Source of the DNA: an uncultured Gammaproteobacteria bacterium
Lineage (GTDB): Bacteria > Pseudomonadota > Gammaproteobacteria > Pseudomonadales > Litorivicinaceae
NCBI GenBank assembly: GCA_913042205.1
Contig: CAJWIY010000007.1
Span: forward strand, 1 to 57,152
Length of the DNA stretch: 57,152 bases
Direction of reading: 5' to 3'
This document shows positions 5,667 to 40,318 of the stretch, one piece after another. Numbering within the stretch: position 1 is the stretch's first letter; each line of letters begins with the position of its first letter. The position numbers were made by a program, and so were the translations under genes. Below the pieces are notes generated by a model that was not told the origin of the DNA, did not search any database, and was given only the letters and a program-made list of their open reading frames with translations.

Positions 5667-6401
5667 ATGAGACTGTTTCAGATTGCAGGCGCCGCCGTCG
5701 TAATGACTGCGGCGTCTTTGTTTACACACGCTGAAGAGCCATCCAGCTCTGAGTCTTTGCGCCAATCTCAGGGTGAGTTGCTTCTGCAAATTGAGCAACT
5801 TCGACAGGAAACGCAGGCTCTTCGCGGGCTGATTGAAGAGCTTTCCTATCAGCTGAGTCAAATGTCCACAGATCAAAAGACTCGGTATTTGGATTTGGAT
5901 CAACGGCTGGGTGAGCTTGTTCGCATCCAGAAAGATGCGGTCGCGGTCAAGCCGACGCAACCTAATGCTTCGGCAGTTCGCGGCGGGTTTGAACCTTCTC
6001 CAGCAACTCAGGTTGCTGTGCCAGAAATATCAGATCAAGATGCCTACAACGCTGCGTTTGAAATGATTCGAGAGCGAAAATTTGATGAAGCTCTGGTGGC
6101 TTTGGATTCGTTCGTCCAAGTATATCCAGATAGTGAGCTTGTCTTGGATGCTCGTTTTTGGCGCGGGCAGGTTTTTGATGTACTGGGTCGCGACCAAGAG
6201 GCGATCGAAACATTTAAGGGGTTAACGTTGGCGGCGCCTGATTACCGACGGATCCTTCAGGTCAAGGTAAAGTTAGGAAAGTTGTTGATCAAAAATCAAG
6301 ACGTTATTAATGGCCGTAAGATCCTGCAAGAGGTGATTACACAATCGCCGGAGAGTGTTGAGGCGGGATTGGCTTCTCGCGAGCTCGAGAAGATTAACTG
6401 A
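5667..6401 (+). CDS. cpoB: Cell division coordinator CpoB (YbgF)
   Basis: A 244-residue periplasmic protein. A signal peptide (residues 1-22, ending in THAEE) is followed by a trimerising coiled coil (about 28-75, LLLQIEQLRQETQALRGLIEELSYQLSQ). A C-terminal set of TPR units (about 125-244) begins DQDAYNAAFEMIRERKFDEALVALDSF. CpoB binds TolA and coordinates outer-membrane constriction with septal wall synthesis. It lies 3 bases after pal, its standard position. Confidence 0.96.
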   Translation: MRLFQIAGAAVVMTAASLFTHAEEPSSSESLRQSQGELLLQIEQLRQETQALRGLIEELSYQLSQMSTDQKTRYLDLDQRLGELVRIQKDAVAVKPTQPNASAVRGGFEPSPATQVAVPEISDQDAYNAAFEMIRERKFDEALVALDSFVQVYPDSELVLDARFWRGQVFDVLGRDQEAIETFKGLTLAAPDYRRILQVKVKLGKLLIKNQDVINGRKILQEVITQSPESVEAGLASRELEKIN

Positions 6402-6408
6402 GGTTATC

Positions 6409-7062
6409 ATGAGGGAGCCTCTGAGCCTCCGTATTACGGAAGTGTTCACCAGCCTCCAAGGTGAGGCTCTCACGTCGGGATTGCCGACCACGTTTATCCG
6501 CCTGACCGGATGCCCATTACGCTGCGTGTACTGCGACAGCGACTATGCGTTTCAGGGTGGAGAGCAGCGATCAGTCGCTGATCTAGTCAACACATCGAAG
6601 GCGTTTGGCGCGAATTTAGTTTGTGTGACCGGTGGAGAACCGCTTGCTCAGCCAAACTGCTTGGGTCTTCTAACGTCGCTCTGTGATGCTGGCTTTACGG
6701 TTTCTCTGGAAACCTCAGGAGCCGTCGATATATCAGACGTAGATTCTCGAGTCTCAATTGTTCTTGATCTCAAGACACCGGGCTCCGGAGAATCATCTAA
6801 GAATTTACTATCCAACCTTGAATTGATTAGTGAGAAGGATCAGGTCAAGGTGGTCGTGACCGACGAGGATGATTTCCGCTGGTTCGAATTATTGTGTGAT
6901 GCACACCCATCAGTTTTTAGGGCTGGGACGGTCTGGATCTCGCCGTCATATGACGAAATCGATCTACAACTATTGGCTAATCTTGTTCTAGGGTCGCGTC
7001 ATCCTTTTAGAATGCAACTGCAACTACACAAGCAGATCTGGGGAAAGGAGCGCGGACGATGA
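6409..7062 (+). CDS. queE: 7-carboxy-7-deazaguanine synthase QueE
   Basis: A 217-residue radical SAM enzyme that converts 6-carboxytetrahydropterin to 7-carboxy-7-deazaguanine in the queuosine/preQ0 pathway. The N-terminus [11 protein letters not shown] is typical. The CxxxCxxC cluster motif for the 4Fe-4S site is [10 protein letters not shown] (about residues 33-42), followed by [10 protein letters not shown] 6409 starts [13 protein letters not shown]; the longer open frame would invade cpoB. It overlaps queC by 4 bases (ATGA). Confidence 0.97.
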
Positions 7063-34882: not shown

Positions 34883-35350
34883 GTGGAGAGTATAGAGCGG
34901 TTCGCTATTTGGGTTGACGCAGATGCCTGCCCGAAGCCGATCAAGGCTTTGGTTTATCGAGCCTCGGATAGACTTAAAGTTCCTGTGTTTCTGGTGGCTA
35001 ACGGCTTTCTACAAAAACCACCCTATCCACTAGTGTCTGTGGTTCAAGTATCGAAGGGCTTCGATGTCGCTGATAACGTAATCTTAGAACGTATGAGTTC
35101 TGGTGATTTGGTTATTACGCAGGACGTCCCGTTGGCGTCTGAAGTCGTTGCACGAGGTGGATACGGGCTGAATCCACGAGGATCTTGGTACGATGAAGAA
35201 TCGGTCAAGAGCTATCTGAGGCGTCGTGATGAGCGGGAACAAATGCGAGAAGCTGGCATGGTTCAGGGAGGCCCCCAACCTTTTTCACAAAAGGATACGC
35301 AGCAATTCGCCCGTGTATTTGATCAGTTTTTAGCCAGAGCCAAGCGTTAG
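34883..35350 (+). CDS. YaiI/YqxD family protein (UPF0178)
   Basis: A 155-residue protein of the DUF188 family: FAIWVDADACPKPIKALVYRAS near residues 7-28, DVADNVI, GDLVITQDVPLA and RRRDEREQMREAG. The family has a PIN-like fold with acidic residues and may be nucleolytic, but its role is not established. It starts GTG 34883 and its stop TAG overlaps the GTG start of the next gene. Confidence 0.9.
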   Translation: MESIERFAIWVDADACPKPIKALVYRASDRLKVPVFLVANGFLQKPPYPLVSVVQVSKGFDVADNVILERMSSGDLVITQDVPLASEVVARGGYGLNPRGSWYDEESVKSYLRRRDEREQMREAGMVQGGPQPFSQKDTQQFARVFDQFLARAKR

Positions 35351-36114
35351 TGACTTGGTTCTCTAGGCGTCTAGAAACCAAGGCTCTGATTCAAGAGTCG
35401 ACCCTGCAGTTGCAATGGCCAGTGGAGGTGCGTCGCTCAGCACGTCGGCGGACCCTGGAGGTGCGTGTCACTTGGGATAATCGAGTTCGTGTGTTGTGTC
35501 CGATGATACTGAACGACGTTCAAATCGCTGACTTTGTGAGTGCCAAGTCGGGGTGGATAGAGTCTAAGTTGAGGATTAATGCGAGTAAAATTATTGGTTC
35601 GTCACAAATAATCACTGCGGGCTCTGTTCTCTTTTTTCGCGGACAAACCCTGACTCTGGTGGTTACCCAAGCAGAACGGACCGCTATCACGCTTGATCAA
35701 GCTCGGCTTATCGTGAAGGCACCAGGAAATAGTTCTGAGGCTCTGAACGCGCTGCTTCGGGATTGGTTCTACCAACGCGCCAGGGAGATTCTCCTCGAAC
35801 GCACAGAGTTCTATTCTAAGGTTCTTGGCCGCCAGCCAACAAAAATTACATTGAAGGTATATCGATCGATGTGGGGCCGGTGCAATGCAAGTGGGGCGAT
35901 AGCCTTTGACTGGAGGATAGTCATGGCCCCCGATTCAGTGATTGAGTATCTAGTGGTTCATGAACTGTGCCACCTAACCCATTTTGACCATTCATCCAGT
36001 TTTTGGGACCTGGTGGAGTCGGTGAAACCAGACTTTCGGGAATCGAAATCATGGCTCCGAGCGAATGCGGGCTGGATCAAACAGATGTTTAAAAATGACT
36101 CTGATGTTCACTAA
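35350..36114 (+). CDS. YgjP-type zinc metallopeptidase (M48-like)
   Basis: A 254-residue protein of the DUF45/YgjP family. The zinc motif HELCHLTHFDHSSSFW (about residues 202-217) has HExxH plus a third histidine, as in SprT/WLM-type minigluzincins, and WGRCNASGAIAFDWR precedes it. No signal peptide, so cytoplasmic. It overlaps the YaiI-type gene by one base (GTG start within TAGTG). Substrates are unknown. Confidence 0.9.
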   Translation: MTWFSRRLETKALIQESTLQLQWPVEVRRSARRRTLEVRVTWDNRVRVLCPMILNDVQIADFVSAKSGWIESKLRINASKIIGSSQIITAGSVLFFRGQTLTLVVTQAERTAITLDQARLIVKAPGNSSEALNALLRDWFYQRAREILLERTEFYSKVLGRQPTKITLKVYRSMWGRCNASGAIAFDWRIVMAPDSVIEYLVVHELCHLTHFDHSSSFWDLVESVKPDFRESKSWLRANAGWIKQMFKNDSDVH

Positions 36115-37175
36115 TCAACGTACCCGATATAGCTCGATAATGTCGCGATTTAATTCCAATCCTACTCCAGGGCGTTCTGGAATTTTGAGGTGTCCGTCCC
36201 TGACTTGGTAAGGCTCTTTGAACAGAGGATCGGACCAATTCATCCACTCGAGGTAATCAGCGGTTGGAGTTACTCGCATCAAATGTGCTGACACCTCATG
36301 ATAGAGATGTGAAGAGACTGGTTTTTTATAGGCCTCTGCCAAGGCAGCGGTTTTCATCCATCCGGAGACACCTCCGATCCGCATGAGGTCGGGCATGATC
36401 GCGTCAACCGATCCTATTTCGAGGGCCTGAGCCGCATGATCTACGCCATGAAAGTTCTCCCCCAGGATCAGTGGCGTTGAGATGACGCGGCGAAGCTCTG
36501 CATAGTTTTGCAGTTCGTAATAGGGGATGGGTTCTTCGAACCAATAGAGGCCCTCTTGATCTAGTGACTTGAGCCGGGGGATTGCGGCGTTAAATGTCAG
36601 GACTTGATTAAAATCACACAGGAGATGACCTTCTTCATTCATTTGACTTCTCACAGCCTCAATGGCCTGAAGATCTGTATCCAGGTTGTCTCGGCCCAAA
36701 CGTATTTTTAGAGCCGAAAAATTACCCTCGTGTCGTAATTCTCCAGCCTGTTTTGCTAGTTTCTCAGGTGGGAGCAGCCAAAGCCCCCCTGAGTTGTATG
36801 CTTTCACATCTGCGAGGTCCCCACCGAGATGTTCGCATAGCGGTAAATCGGCATCTTTGGCGCTGGCGTCCCACATCGCTATATCAAGGGCAGCCAGCGC
36901 ATACATGGCGATTCCAGAGCGCCCTAATAAGCTGATTTGGTGCATACCGATCTCATAAAAATCTGCGGGCGCGAGCGGCTTGTTCTTAATTAATCCAAAA
37001 AGTTCTCGAATAACAAATTCAATTGGTTGCGTGTAATTAACCAGGTAGGGCAAATGTAACTGTTCCCTACAACACCGCTGTCCAGAGTGATTTCAGTAAC
37101 GATGAACGGCCACTTATCATAATGTCCGACCGCCGAGACTATGGGTCGTCGTAACGGTAAGTTGACGGTGACCAC
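36115..37175 (-). pseudogene. Enolase-superfamily (mandelate racemase-like) gene with a frameshift
   Basis: The main frame (37053 to 36115, 312 residues) has barrel signatures: ALKIRLGRDNLDTD with the KxR-type catalytic strand, DFNQVL, WFEEPI and GENFH, ending RPGVGLELNRD. The N-terminal lid domain is in another frame (37175 to about 37055): VNLPLRRPIVSAVGHYDKWP up to VVGNSYI. One base added or removed near 37050 would join them (SYI + PYLVNY). No ATG precedes the first part. The enzyme is probably lost, unless this is a sequencing error. Confidence 0.8.
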
Positions 37176-38602: not shown

Positions 38603-38801
38603 TTTTTACCCAGTCCAAAGAAGCTTTGATAATCAGCCGGCGATCATTCATAGCGACCCAAGGTATAGAAGTGTCGACGCTAACTCATTGGTACTCTCTT
38701 ATTGAGAGTAAGGCACCTAGGGTGATCGCAAGAGATCAAGGCCGCACCCTTTAGAACAGACTCCTTTGTGCCGATATATCAATGTGTCGGAGTTAAGGAT
38801 C

Positions 38802-39596
38802 ATGGTTTTGCCGGTGATTAAATATTTGATCGCGTCGCTTTTATCATTTATGTCTATTGGGTTGCATGCTGAGGATGCGCAGAGACTCGGCTCGCCTTCG
38901 GCCGTCCTCGATGCACTCCAGCATAGGCAAGGAGACGTGGTTCTGGCCCTTATAGACAGCCCGGCAGACCAATCAAATCGACTCAAGAGCTTACAAGGCT
39001 TATTTAGTGTTTACTCGCTCGAATTGAATGGCGTTGATTTGGGGCAGGTTCGCCGAAACGACGTGCTTCAGGTACGTCCTCGGCTTGGTTTGAACAAGTT
39101 GATTGTCAGTGATGCGTTCAAGGACACCGATCAAACGGAGCTGAATTTTCCGGCGATGCGTTCGGCCGGCGTATCCACCACTATCGTTGAGATTCAGACA
39201 TCGCGCCAGTTTAGTTGGATTCAGGCGCTTCCGTTGCCTAAGCGTGACGTCCAGGCGATTCATGACGCATTGGCCCGTAGTCAGCATGGAGGGATGGGTA
39301 GGGTCATCGATTTGATTCGCTCGCGCGGTAAAGAGCCCACCCCGACGCAACGCAAACGTACGAACTGGAGTAGCGGACGCTCCAACTTCGATGACACCGG
39401 CGATGAGTCCGACTCGGAACCTACGAGTTCAAAATCTGCAAGCTCAGGATTACCAGAAACGACAGCCAAAAATTCTGGTGCGTCGGGTAACACTGGACCA
39501 GAGTCGTCATCAGATAAAGTTTCTGAGCCGTCGCCTGAATCGATCAAAAAAGAGTCCTCGGTAAATATTTCAGCCGATCGCAGGAGTTATTACTAA
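38802..39596 (+). CDS. Hypothetical exported protein with Ser-rich tail
   Basis: A 264-residue precursor from ATG 38802 with signal peptide VLPVIKYLIASLLSFMSIGLHA (cleavage near AEDA). Residues 25-170 form an apparently folded domain with no recognised family. From about 185 to the end it is low-complexity and rich in Ser, Thr, Pro, Glu and Asp (SDSEPTSSKSASSG...), likely disordered. The next gene, an aspartic-protease-like protein, starts 50 bases later, so co-expression is possible. Confidence 0.65.
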   Translation: MVLPVIKYLIASLLSFMSIGLHAEDAQRLGSPSAVLDALQHRQGDVVLALIDSPADQSNRLKSLQGLFSVYSLELNGVDLGQVRRNDVLQVRPRLGLNKLIVSDAFKDTDQTELNFPAMRSAGVSTTIVEIQTSRQFSWIQALPLPKRDVQAIHDALARSQHGGMGRVIDLIRSRGKEPTPTQRKRTNWSSGRSNFDDTGDESDSEPTSSKSASSGLPETTAKNSGASGNTGPESSSDKVSEPSPESIKKESSVNISADRRSYY

Positions 39597-39646
39597 GTCG
39601 TTCATTTGCGAGTACACTAAGGATGGTCTGCGGCTGAGGGTCTAAC

Positions 39647-40318
39647 GTGAGCCAATCCATCGAAGTCAAGGTCTGTGACGGTATCTTGTGTGCTGACTTT
39701 AATGAGGGACGTTTGGTCGTTGATACTGGCTCACCAGTGTCTCTGGGCCCTGATATGACGGTACAAATTTTGGGTAACGCAGTACGGCTGAGTCCAAGTT
39801 TTGGAAATTACACATGGGCATCAATCCAGCAGGCCCTGCCATTTGCCGCGGTTGGACTGATTGGTGTGGATGCGTTCAGTGATTCGACCCTTGGGTTTGA
39901 CGTCGGGAATCGAACCCTCGCTCAAATAGATGGAGAAATCACTGGTAACCCCGAGGCGTTTGTAATGGGGTCTCCCGTCATGGTGTGTCAGATCGGCGAG
40001 GAAAAATTAAGGTGCCTGCTCGATACAGGTGCCGGATTATCGTATCTACGCGATTCCCAAGTCTCTGTGTCCGGTAAGTCGCTCGGCAAGCGTAAAGACT
40101 TTCATCCGATACTTGGACACTTTGATGTTGAAACGGTGGCATGTTCGGTCATGGTGGGGGAGCACTTAATCACAGAAGTCTTTGGGATTGCGACCGAGAG
40201 CCTTATGCCGCTGATGGACTCCGCTCAGATTGACGCGATCTTGGGAACAAGCTTTTTTGAAAAGGGTGTGATCGAAATCGACTTTTCAAACGAGGTCGTT
40301 GGGGCAACCTTCGACTAG
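39647..40318 (+). CDS. Two-lobed aspartic protease-like protein
   Basis: A 223-residue protein from GTG 39647. Two aspartic protease motifs occur, VVDTGSP (D26) and LLDTGAG (D126), 100 residues apart. Each is followed by a hydrophobic-hydrophobic-Gly strand and beta-hairpin: LIGVDAFSDSTLGFDVGNRTL after the first and AILGTSFFEKGVIEIDFSNE after the second. This looks like two retropepsin-type lobes fused in one chain. No signal peptide is seen, so cytoplasmic unless exported otherwise. Its stop lies 2 bases from that of the convergent GntR gene. Protease activity is inferred from DTG only. Confidence 0.75.
   Translation: MSQSIEVKVCDGILCADFNEGRLVVDTGSPVSLGPDMTVQILGNAVRLSPSFGNYTWASIQQALPFAAVGLIGVDAFSDSTLGFDVGNRTLAQIDGEITGNPEAFVMGSPVMVCQIGEEKLRCLLDTGAGLSYLRDSQVSVSGKSLGKRKDFHPILGHFDVETVACSVMVGEHLITEVFGIATESLMPLMDSAQIDAILGTSFFEKGVIEIDFSNEVVGATFD

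Follow-up and report, generated by a model that had tools for sequence, protein, structure and literature searches.

A natural 223-residue, two-lobed protein with a single full flap, predicted to be a minimal aspartic protease of Litoricola-type marine Gammaproteobacteria

Natural retropepsins are homodimers of single-lobe chains, each of which gives a flap. Pepsins are commonly traced back to a retropepsin-like homodimer that underwent duplication and fusion (PMC2761423, PMC2642776, PMC4814920). The pepsin flap is described as part of domain 1, with domain 2 lacking a true flap, probably by loss (PMC2642776), and lobe-lobe sequence similarity in the A1 pepsins is said to be unobservable outside the psi-loop motifs (PMC2761423). 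Bacterial pepsin homologues such as shewasins A and D (MEROPS family A1) are, like the protein described here, single chains with two active-site Asp residues and no signal peptide (PMC2761423, PMC4814920). Other bacterial proteins are two-lobed as well. The Bacteroides fragilis 'Exported protein' or putative endopeptidase 9iy9, a solved structure, likewise has two lobes in one chain but is 420 aa long, has an extra N-terminal part (the match begins at residue 158) and is named exported. The C-terminal domain of mycobacterial PE_PGRS16 (Rv0977; 4ehc) is two-lobed with a DTG and a DSG (structural match E 3.2e-6) and differs in being a 280-residue chain that is part of PE_PGRS proteins; PecA is described as surface-associated (PMC6819658). 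Larger tandem proteins of the Asp_protease_2 type in Proteobacteria (L037, L041, L073, L075, L076, L078, L079, L080 and L082) likewise have two DTG lobes, and differ in their 303-422-codon open frames and in N-termini that by eye are of the export type. A search of the open-access literature, with subscription papers outside its scope, returned no paper on a two-lobe, fused or tandem retropepsin, on 9IY9 or on a Litoricola aspartic protease.

We identified a gene for a 223-aa two-lobed protein in a window of 57,152 nucleotides, which is the whole stretch of DNA that was analysed (Table 1). The open reading frame starts with GTG, and the ORF list of the window holds no overlapping ORF of at least 60 aa on either strand at this position. 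Orthologues of equal length and start were found in marine Gammaproteobacteria, including Litoricola, HIMB30 and LSUCC0096 records, and by its kinship to these the window's own genome would be one of the group. The start codon is GTG across the orthologous loci, with ATG in L010, and a GGAGG lies near the place equivalent to the upstream GAGG in 4 of 13 loci (L008, L009, L020 and L024). The frame extends in the 5' direction beyond the conserved start by one codon in 5 of the 13 loci and by 3-10 codons in 6; L005 and L010 alone have a long extension, which overlaps the neighbour gene there in a different frame. Promoter- and terminator-like matches around the gene showed no excess over chance. 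For nine orthologue pairs, selected out of more possible pairs, dN was 0.051-0.078 and dS 0.43-0.69 (dN/dS 0.10-0.15), and both lobes showed low dN in the pairwise comparison. Judged by these sequence comparisons, 39647-40318 is a real gene under purifying selection.

Table 1. Features of the two-lobed protein gene and its surroundings, in window coordinates.
Feature	Position	Strand	Basis
276-aa exported-looking orphan, ~50 nt upstream of the protease gene	38766..39596	+	adjoins in 11/12 loci
GAGG, weak ribosome-binding-site-like element, 7 nt 5' of GTG	39636..39639	+	inferred from sequence
Gene for 223-aa two-lobed clan AA (retropepsin/pepsin-fold) protein	39647..40318	+	ORF, orthologues, model, fold matches, purifying selection
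N-lobe, residues 1-104, truncated flap	39647..39958	+	boundary at 104 is the analyst's choice
First catalytic motif, D26-T27-G28 (DTGSP)	39722..39730	+	invariant in 12/12 (A1) and 14/14 (A4)
N-lobe hydrophobic-hydrophobic-Gly, L71-I72-G73	39857..39865	+	L71 and G73 invariant in A4
C-lobe, residues 105-223, retroviral-protease-like, full flap	39959..40315	+	Z 10-11 to retroviral proteases; weak PF13650 match
Second catalytic motif, D126-T127-G128 (DTGA; DSG in L006)	40022..40030	+	D126 and G128 invariant in A1 and A4
C-lobe flap hairpin, residues 144-170	40076..40156	+	strands from model; flap role inferred
C-lobe hydrophobic-hydrophobic-Gly, I198-L199-G200 (Gly to Ser in L009)	40238..40246	+	

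Residue conservation was followed in two alignments. Alignment A1 consists of 12 Litoricola-type sequences including the window protein, to which the others are 53-86% identical, and alignment A4 of 14 rows, including three distant full-length relatives of 20-24% identity (L032, L035 and L036). L003, which contains many N, and L011, with the first 64 residues only, were excluded from every alignment, and L012-L019, L021-L023 and L025 were dropped as repeats of the window or of L001-L011. The 3' truncated L010 is in A1 but absent from A2, A3 and A4, and L035, whose start is uncertain, was entered in A4 from residue 17 of its open frame onwards. The two DTG motifs that had drawn attention to the ORF lie at residues 26-28 and 126-128, exactly 100 residues apart. 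At least two DTG motifs occurred in 351 of 100,000 sequence shuffles, and the motif count by itself would be modest evidence, insufficient alone. In A1, D26, T27, G28, D126 and G128 are invariant in all 12 rows and T127 is replaced by Ser once. The invariant residues of A4 are D26, T27, G28, P30, S32, L71, G73, D75, P110, D126, G128, S132, Y133, D151, F152, P154, G157 and G180, a set that takes in the two catalytic motifs, the N-lobe hydrophobic-hydrophobic-Gly and the C-lobe flap motif. The homologues thus keep both aspartates, in 12/12 rows of A1 and 14/14 of A4, the three distant relatives among them. The clan AA hallmark hydrophobic-hydrophobic-Asp-Thr/Ser-Gly is present once per lobe in 14/14 sequences, and the second psi element, hydrophobic-hydrophobic-Gly, in 14/14 N-lobes and 13/14 C-lobes. 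At the tip of the C-lobe hairpin is the motif D151-F152-x-P154-x-x-G157-x-F159, in which D151, F152, P154 and G157 are invariant (14/14) and F159 is conserved in at least 90%. Changes at conserved sites are rare: residue 200 is Ser instead of Gly in L009, and L006 has DSG instead of DTG at residue 127. Residue 129, directly after the second DTG, is Ala, with Ser in L004.

The proposal that each half of the chain is one retropepsin lobe agrees with a profile comparison of the halves, which gave E 2.3e-7 and a score of 43.6, against 17.75 for the best of 100 column shuffles; by this measure the two lobes are homologous parts of one chain. The lobes are unequal. To align them, 22 columns have to be left empty in the N-lobe; they face C-lobe residues 157-178, which make up the second strand of the flap and the greater part of the strand that follows. 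The flap strands of the C-lobe are long in the structural model (144-153 and 157-170), and their N-lobe counterparts are short (37-41 and 44-49). The spacing from the catalytic Asp to the hydrophobic-hydrophobic-Gly in the window protein is 47 residues in the N-lobe and 74 in the C-lobe, a difference of 27; across the family it is 46-47 in 14/14 N-lobes and 73-77 in the 13 C-lobes keeping the Gly. The Gly motif used for spacing was chosen by eye among several pattern matches per protein, by its GxDxL-like or equivalent context, a rule applied alike to the family and to the tandem set described below. The sequence-only reading had placed an equivalent hydrophobic-Gly strand and hairpin after each DTG; the Gly motifs are there (G73 and G200), but the hairpins are not equivalent.

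AlphaFold2 run on close orthologues only gave a mean pLDDT of 67.2 with a poorly modelled N-lobe (pLDDT of 44-59 in its blocks). A confident model (pLDDT 93.5, pTM 0.91; five models at 91.7-93.5) was obtained because the three distant relatives were added. The C-lobe of the first model (105-213) matched the FIV, XMRV and HIV proteases at Z 10-11, a lobe fold common to the C-lobe and the retropepsins of MEROPS family A2. When the confident model was superposed as a whole, 9iy9 matched at Z 16.5 (212 residues aligned, 3.0 A), exceeding the Z of 13-14 of the pepsins; the other 49 among the matches listed are pepsin-type proteins (Z 13.3-14.2, 192-204 residues aligned, 3.2-3.7 A). The best Foldseek matches, from E 4.6e-7 upwards, were to bilobed aspartic proteases as well as to tethered HIV-1 protease dimers; the whole-length alignments had a large rmsd (6-11 A) and a TM-score by query length of 0.44-0.60. 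The predicted model and its superpositions show a fold of the pepsin/retropepsin type, its two lobes flanking a single cleft. Because both lobes superpose at once on bilobed aspartic proteases, the whole-chain fit implies that the DTG loops would face each other in the model, as the fused-dimer reading requires. Lobe homology, conservation of the aspartates and the predicted two-lobed fold together support a fused-dimer, retropepsin-like single chain.

The relation to the larger tandem proteins, which had turned up as weak matches, was analysed with a set of nine of the ten loci tried, L077 having been lost because its second DTG lies outside the pattern; L074, a near copy of L073, and L081 are not part of the set. 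Profile comparison (hhalign) of the family with these nine proteins gave E 3.1e-14 and a score of 102.5 over 145 columns (window residues 67-221), against 18.4 for the best of 50 shuffles, and the match spans the lobe boundary, from the N-lobe hydrophobic-hydrophobic-Gly through the C-lobe. Single lobes scored 45.5 (N-lobe against tandem N-lobe), 42.7 (N-lobe against tandem C-lobe), 60.7 and 63.7 (C-lobe against tandem N-lobe and C-lobe), which fails to settle which lobe pairs with which. Since the colinear score exceeds the like-with-like lobe scores (45.5 and 63.7), the simplest reading of the sequences would be one two-lobed ancestor common to this family and the larger tandem clan AA proteins found in other Proteobacteria, which look exported. 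Given such an ancestor, the N-lobe flap would either have been trimmed in this lineage or never have grown, and we prefer trimming. One DTGA region of 9iy9 matches tandem protein L041, and the sequence match of 9iy9 to the family profile is weak (E 0.0082).

The colinear homology to nine tandem proteins, together with a best structural match that is itself called an exported protein, could also mean that the window protein is an ordinary larger Asp_protease_2 tandem member whose signal peptide was missed or lost. We regard this as very unlikely. The upstream frame extension is at most 10 codons in 11 of the 13 loci; the nine tandem proteins have an N-lobe Asp-to-Gly spacing of 71-81, so that the N-lobe of the family is shorter by 24-35 residues in 14/14 sequences; and the predicted pI is 4.0-5.0 in the 14 sequences, against 9.3-9.5 in two tandem proteins with leaders included. 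No N-terminal hydrophobic leader is visible in the window protein by eye or by hydropathy, in line with the sequence-only reading, which saw no signal peptide, and the protein would therefore be placed in the cytoplasm. The sequence-only reading had set it apart from known bacterial pepsin homologues as larger and usually exported proteins. Their larger size stands (368-561 aa against 223; PMC2761423), but export does not: a signal peptide was predicted for none of the homologues covered in PMC2761423, and shewasin D resides mainly in the cytoplasm (PMC4814920). The phrase 'usually exported' better fits the larger tandem proteins (L037, L041, L073 and others, by eye).

Scores against family profiles were weak. 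The window protein scored 18.7 bits with PF13650 (Asp_protease_2; gathering cut-off 24.3) in the C-lobe only (residues 114-203), and the N-lobe has no Pfam match of its own; the best score shown among relatives was 24.0 bits for L036, the best A1 alignment member having an equal E of 6.7e-5. With PF00077 (RVP) it scored 14.0 bits (cut-off 20.7), and L036, with 25.8 bits over its residues 111-215, exceeded that cut-off. PF00026 (Asp) matched 6 of the 12 members of alignment A1 weakly (best E 4.7e-4); for the window protein the listing, which ran to E 10, shows no match. Matches to deoxyribonuclease IV were far below cut-off or insignificant and were set aside. Such scores would suit a catalytically silent relative that retained the fold as a binding or scaffold protein and does no cutting. 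One flap is truncated, a pepsin-fold non-peptidase (xylanase inhibitor 1t6e) is among the structural matches listed, and the bilobed mycobacterial domain 4ehc gave no proteolytic activity in an earlier study, as reported in PMC6819658. We nevertheless think a silent protein unlikely, given that D26, D126, both DTG glycines, D151, F152, P154 and G157 are invariant in 14 sequences down to about 20% identity. The sole DTG variant is the DSG of L006, a Ser that is accepted there in MEROPS family A1 (PMC4814920), and the non-peptidase members described in PMC2761423 are without conserved active-site aspartates.

We consider it likely that the window protein is a cytoplasmic, monomeric clan AA aspartic endopeptidase of fused retropepsin-dimer build, with one flap. 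From what is known of clan AA, D26 and D126 would lie opposite one another and bind the catalytic water, the substrate peptide would sit in the cleft between the lobes, and the single C-lobe flap (D-F-x-P-x-x-G-x-F) would close over it. The likely job would be the limited cleavage of specific cytosolic proteins, although the loss of a flap could leave weak or no catalysis. Ala129 gives a weak hint, by analogy, at a near-neutral optimum. An Ala after the second DTG is likewise found in marine bacterial pepsin homologues (PMC2761423, PMC4814920), and for renin and retropepsin it has been argued to go with a near-neutral optimum (PMC2761423); the prediction is weak because shewasin A, a pepsin homologue with Ala at this place, is most active at pH 4 (PMC4814920). 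The idea of a minimal cytoplasmic two-lobed aspartic protease is thus upheld with unequal lobes, its proteolytic activity being predicted.

Within the genus, 14 of 22 genomes matched, the window's own included, and none of the 35 other genomes in that search did; G020, of the same genus, 99% complete and in 7 contigs, is without a protease match. The three full-length distant relatives belong to other families of the class (L032 in G157, L035 in G349 and L036 in G501). A sample of 293 genomes of the order held one clear relative outside the genus, a class sample of 369 held two, and a redraw of 370 held the same two and two weak matches. Denser sampling around the distant relatives returned the seed genome only (1/1, 1/40 and 1/99). 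At phylum level, a sample of 299 gave one weak match besides the window's own genome, and a sample of 397 gave seven genomes with weak matches, of which those inspected were larger tandem proteins. The samples overlap one another, and among the genomes sampled relatives outside the genus are rare. Two matches in G297 (L033 and L034; E 6.5e-5 and 2.7e-4) were dropped as relatives, the L033 region being VgrG-like by eye, as was L042 (E 9.6e-4, one internal stop). A viral or plasmid origin found no support: tblastn gave no match in 72,556 plasmid records, no relative was found among viral contigs (12 pattern matches failed confirmation), and a comparison of the window protein with PHROG was empty up to E 0.1. 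Most of the 50 listed BFVD matches have retroviral, phage or other viral retropepsin-type names or are nameless; rank 3 among them is an unnamed 203-aa entry.

The gene lies in the order arsC-like gene (-), 70-aa ORF (+), 276-aa orphan (+), protease (+), GntR-family regulator (-) and TRAP transporter. This arrangement is largely conserved as far as the contigs extend, except that the regulator has no match in L001 and is fragmented in L002. In L052 the 276-aa homologue is about 7.7 kb from the protease gene and the other neighbours are unmatched. Co-transcription of the 276-aa gene and the protease gene is plausible. The 276-aa protein has a Ser-rich C-terminal part and was matched by neither Pfam, PADLOC nor PHROG. 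Of 25 genomes from the genus and its family, 18 carry a homologue, and all 18 belong to the genus: the 14 protease genomes and four without a protease match (G003, G005, G006 and G020). A function for the protease read from this neighbour is unsupported. A role in a defence system, raised by a neighbour of relative L036, was dropped: the window protein has a weak PADLOC match (PDC-M08B, E 0.0039, 15.2 bits, in the C-lobe), and the gene neighbours differ among the relatives inspected. L036 (L049:6125-10713, G501) has on one side a 1054-aa protein that combines GNAT-like, SAP, DEAD/ResIII helicase and amidoligase domains, and on the other a 167-aa protein that has no Pfam match. Elsewhere in the window, an enolase-superfamily (MR_MLE) gene at 36115-37175 (-) is apparently split into ORFs of 312 and 61 aa, by either a frameshift or an assembly error; its counterpart is a single ORF of 368 aa in L003 and 363 aa in L007, and only a 51-residue fragment matches in L001. 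In L002, the GntR-family neighbour matches in four pieces (6043-6617, -), and the window gene at 35350-36114 is matched over its first 27 residues only.

Compared with the known systems, the protein is a predicted aspartic protease of minimal size, with two lobes and a single flap, and apparently cytosolic. It has two homologous lobes in one chain and not the homodimerising single-lobe chain of the A2 retropepsins. With the tandem group of 9iy9 it shares colinear homologous lobes; no export signal like that group's is visible by eye or hydropathy, and its N-lobe is too short for a flap. The A1 pepsin trait of an N-lobe flap with Tyr (or Phe) is absent too, the N-lobe having the short strands 37-41 and 44-49 only and a spacing of 46-47. 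In bacterial pepsin homologues a third active-site residue, Tyr or Phe, comes soon after the first Asp (for example D37, Y69 and D287; PMC2761423), so that their flap belongs to the N-lobe and that of the window protein to the C-lobe: the flap asymmetry is reversed. Our confidence is evenly balanced on whether this is a natural minimal pepsin of reversed asymmetry, in which the flap of lobe 1 was trimmed after a retropepsin-like fusion while pepsins lost that of lobe 2. If true, one flap is enough in a fused enzyme and either flap can go, and the family, roughly half as large as bacterial pepsins, would be an independent second experiment in turning a symmetric homodimer into an asymmetric single-chain protease. 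It could help to show how pepsin-like enzymes originated from paired half-enzymes. The family opens to experiment the questions of how many flaps a fused aspartic protease needs, one or two, and of whether it matters which lobe carries the flap, and expression of a small, leaderless protein of 223 residues is expected to be easy. Tethered HIV-1 protease dimers, at 198-203 aa, fall in the same size range but were engineered in the laboratory; here a fused form of that size is natural and asymmetric, with inter-lobe similarity still detectable by profiles and with its sole full flap in the lobe opposite to that of pepsin.
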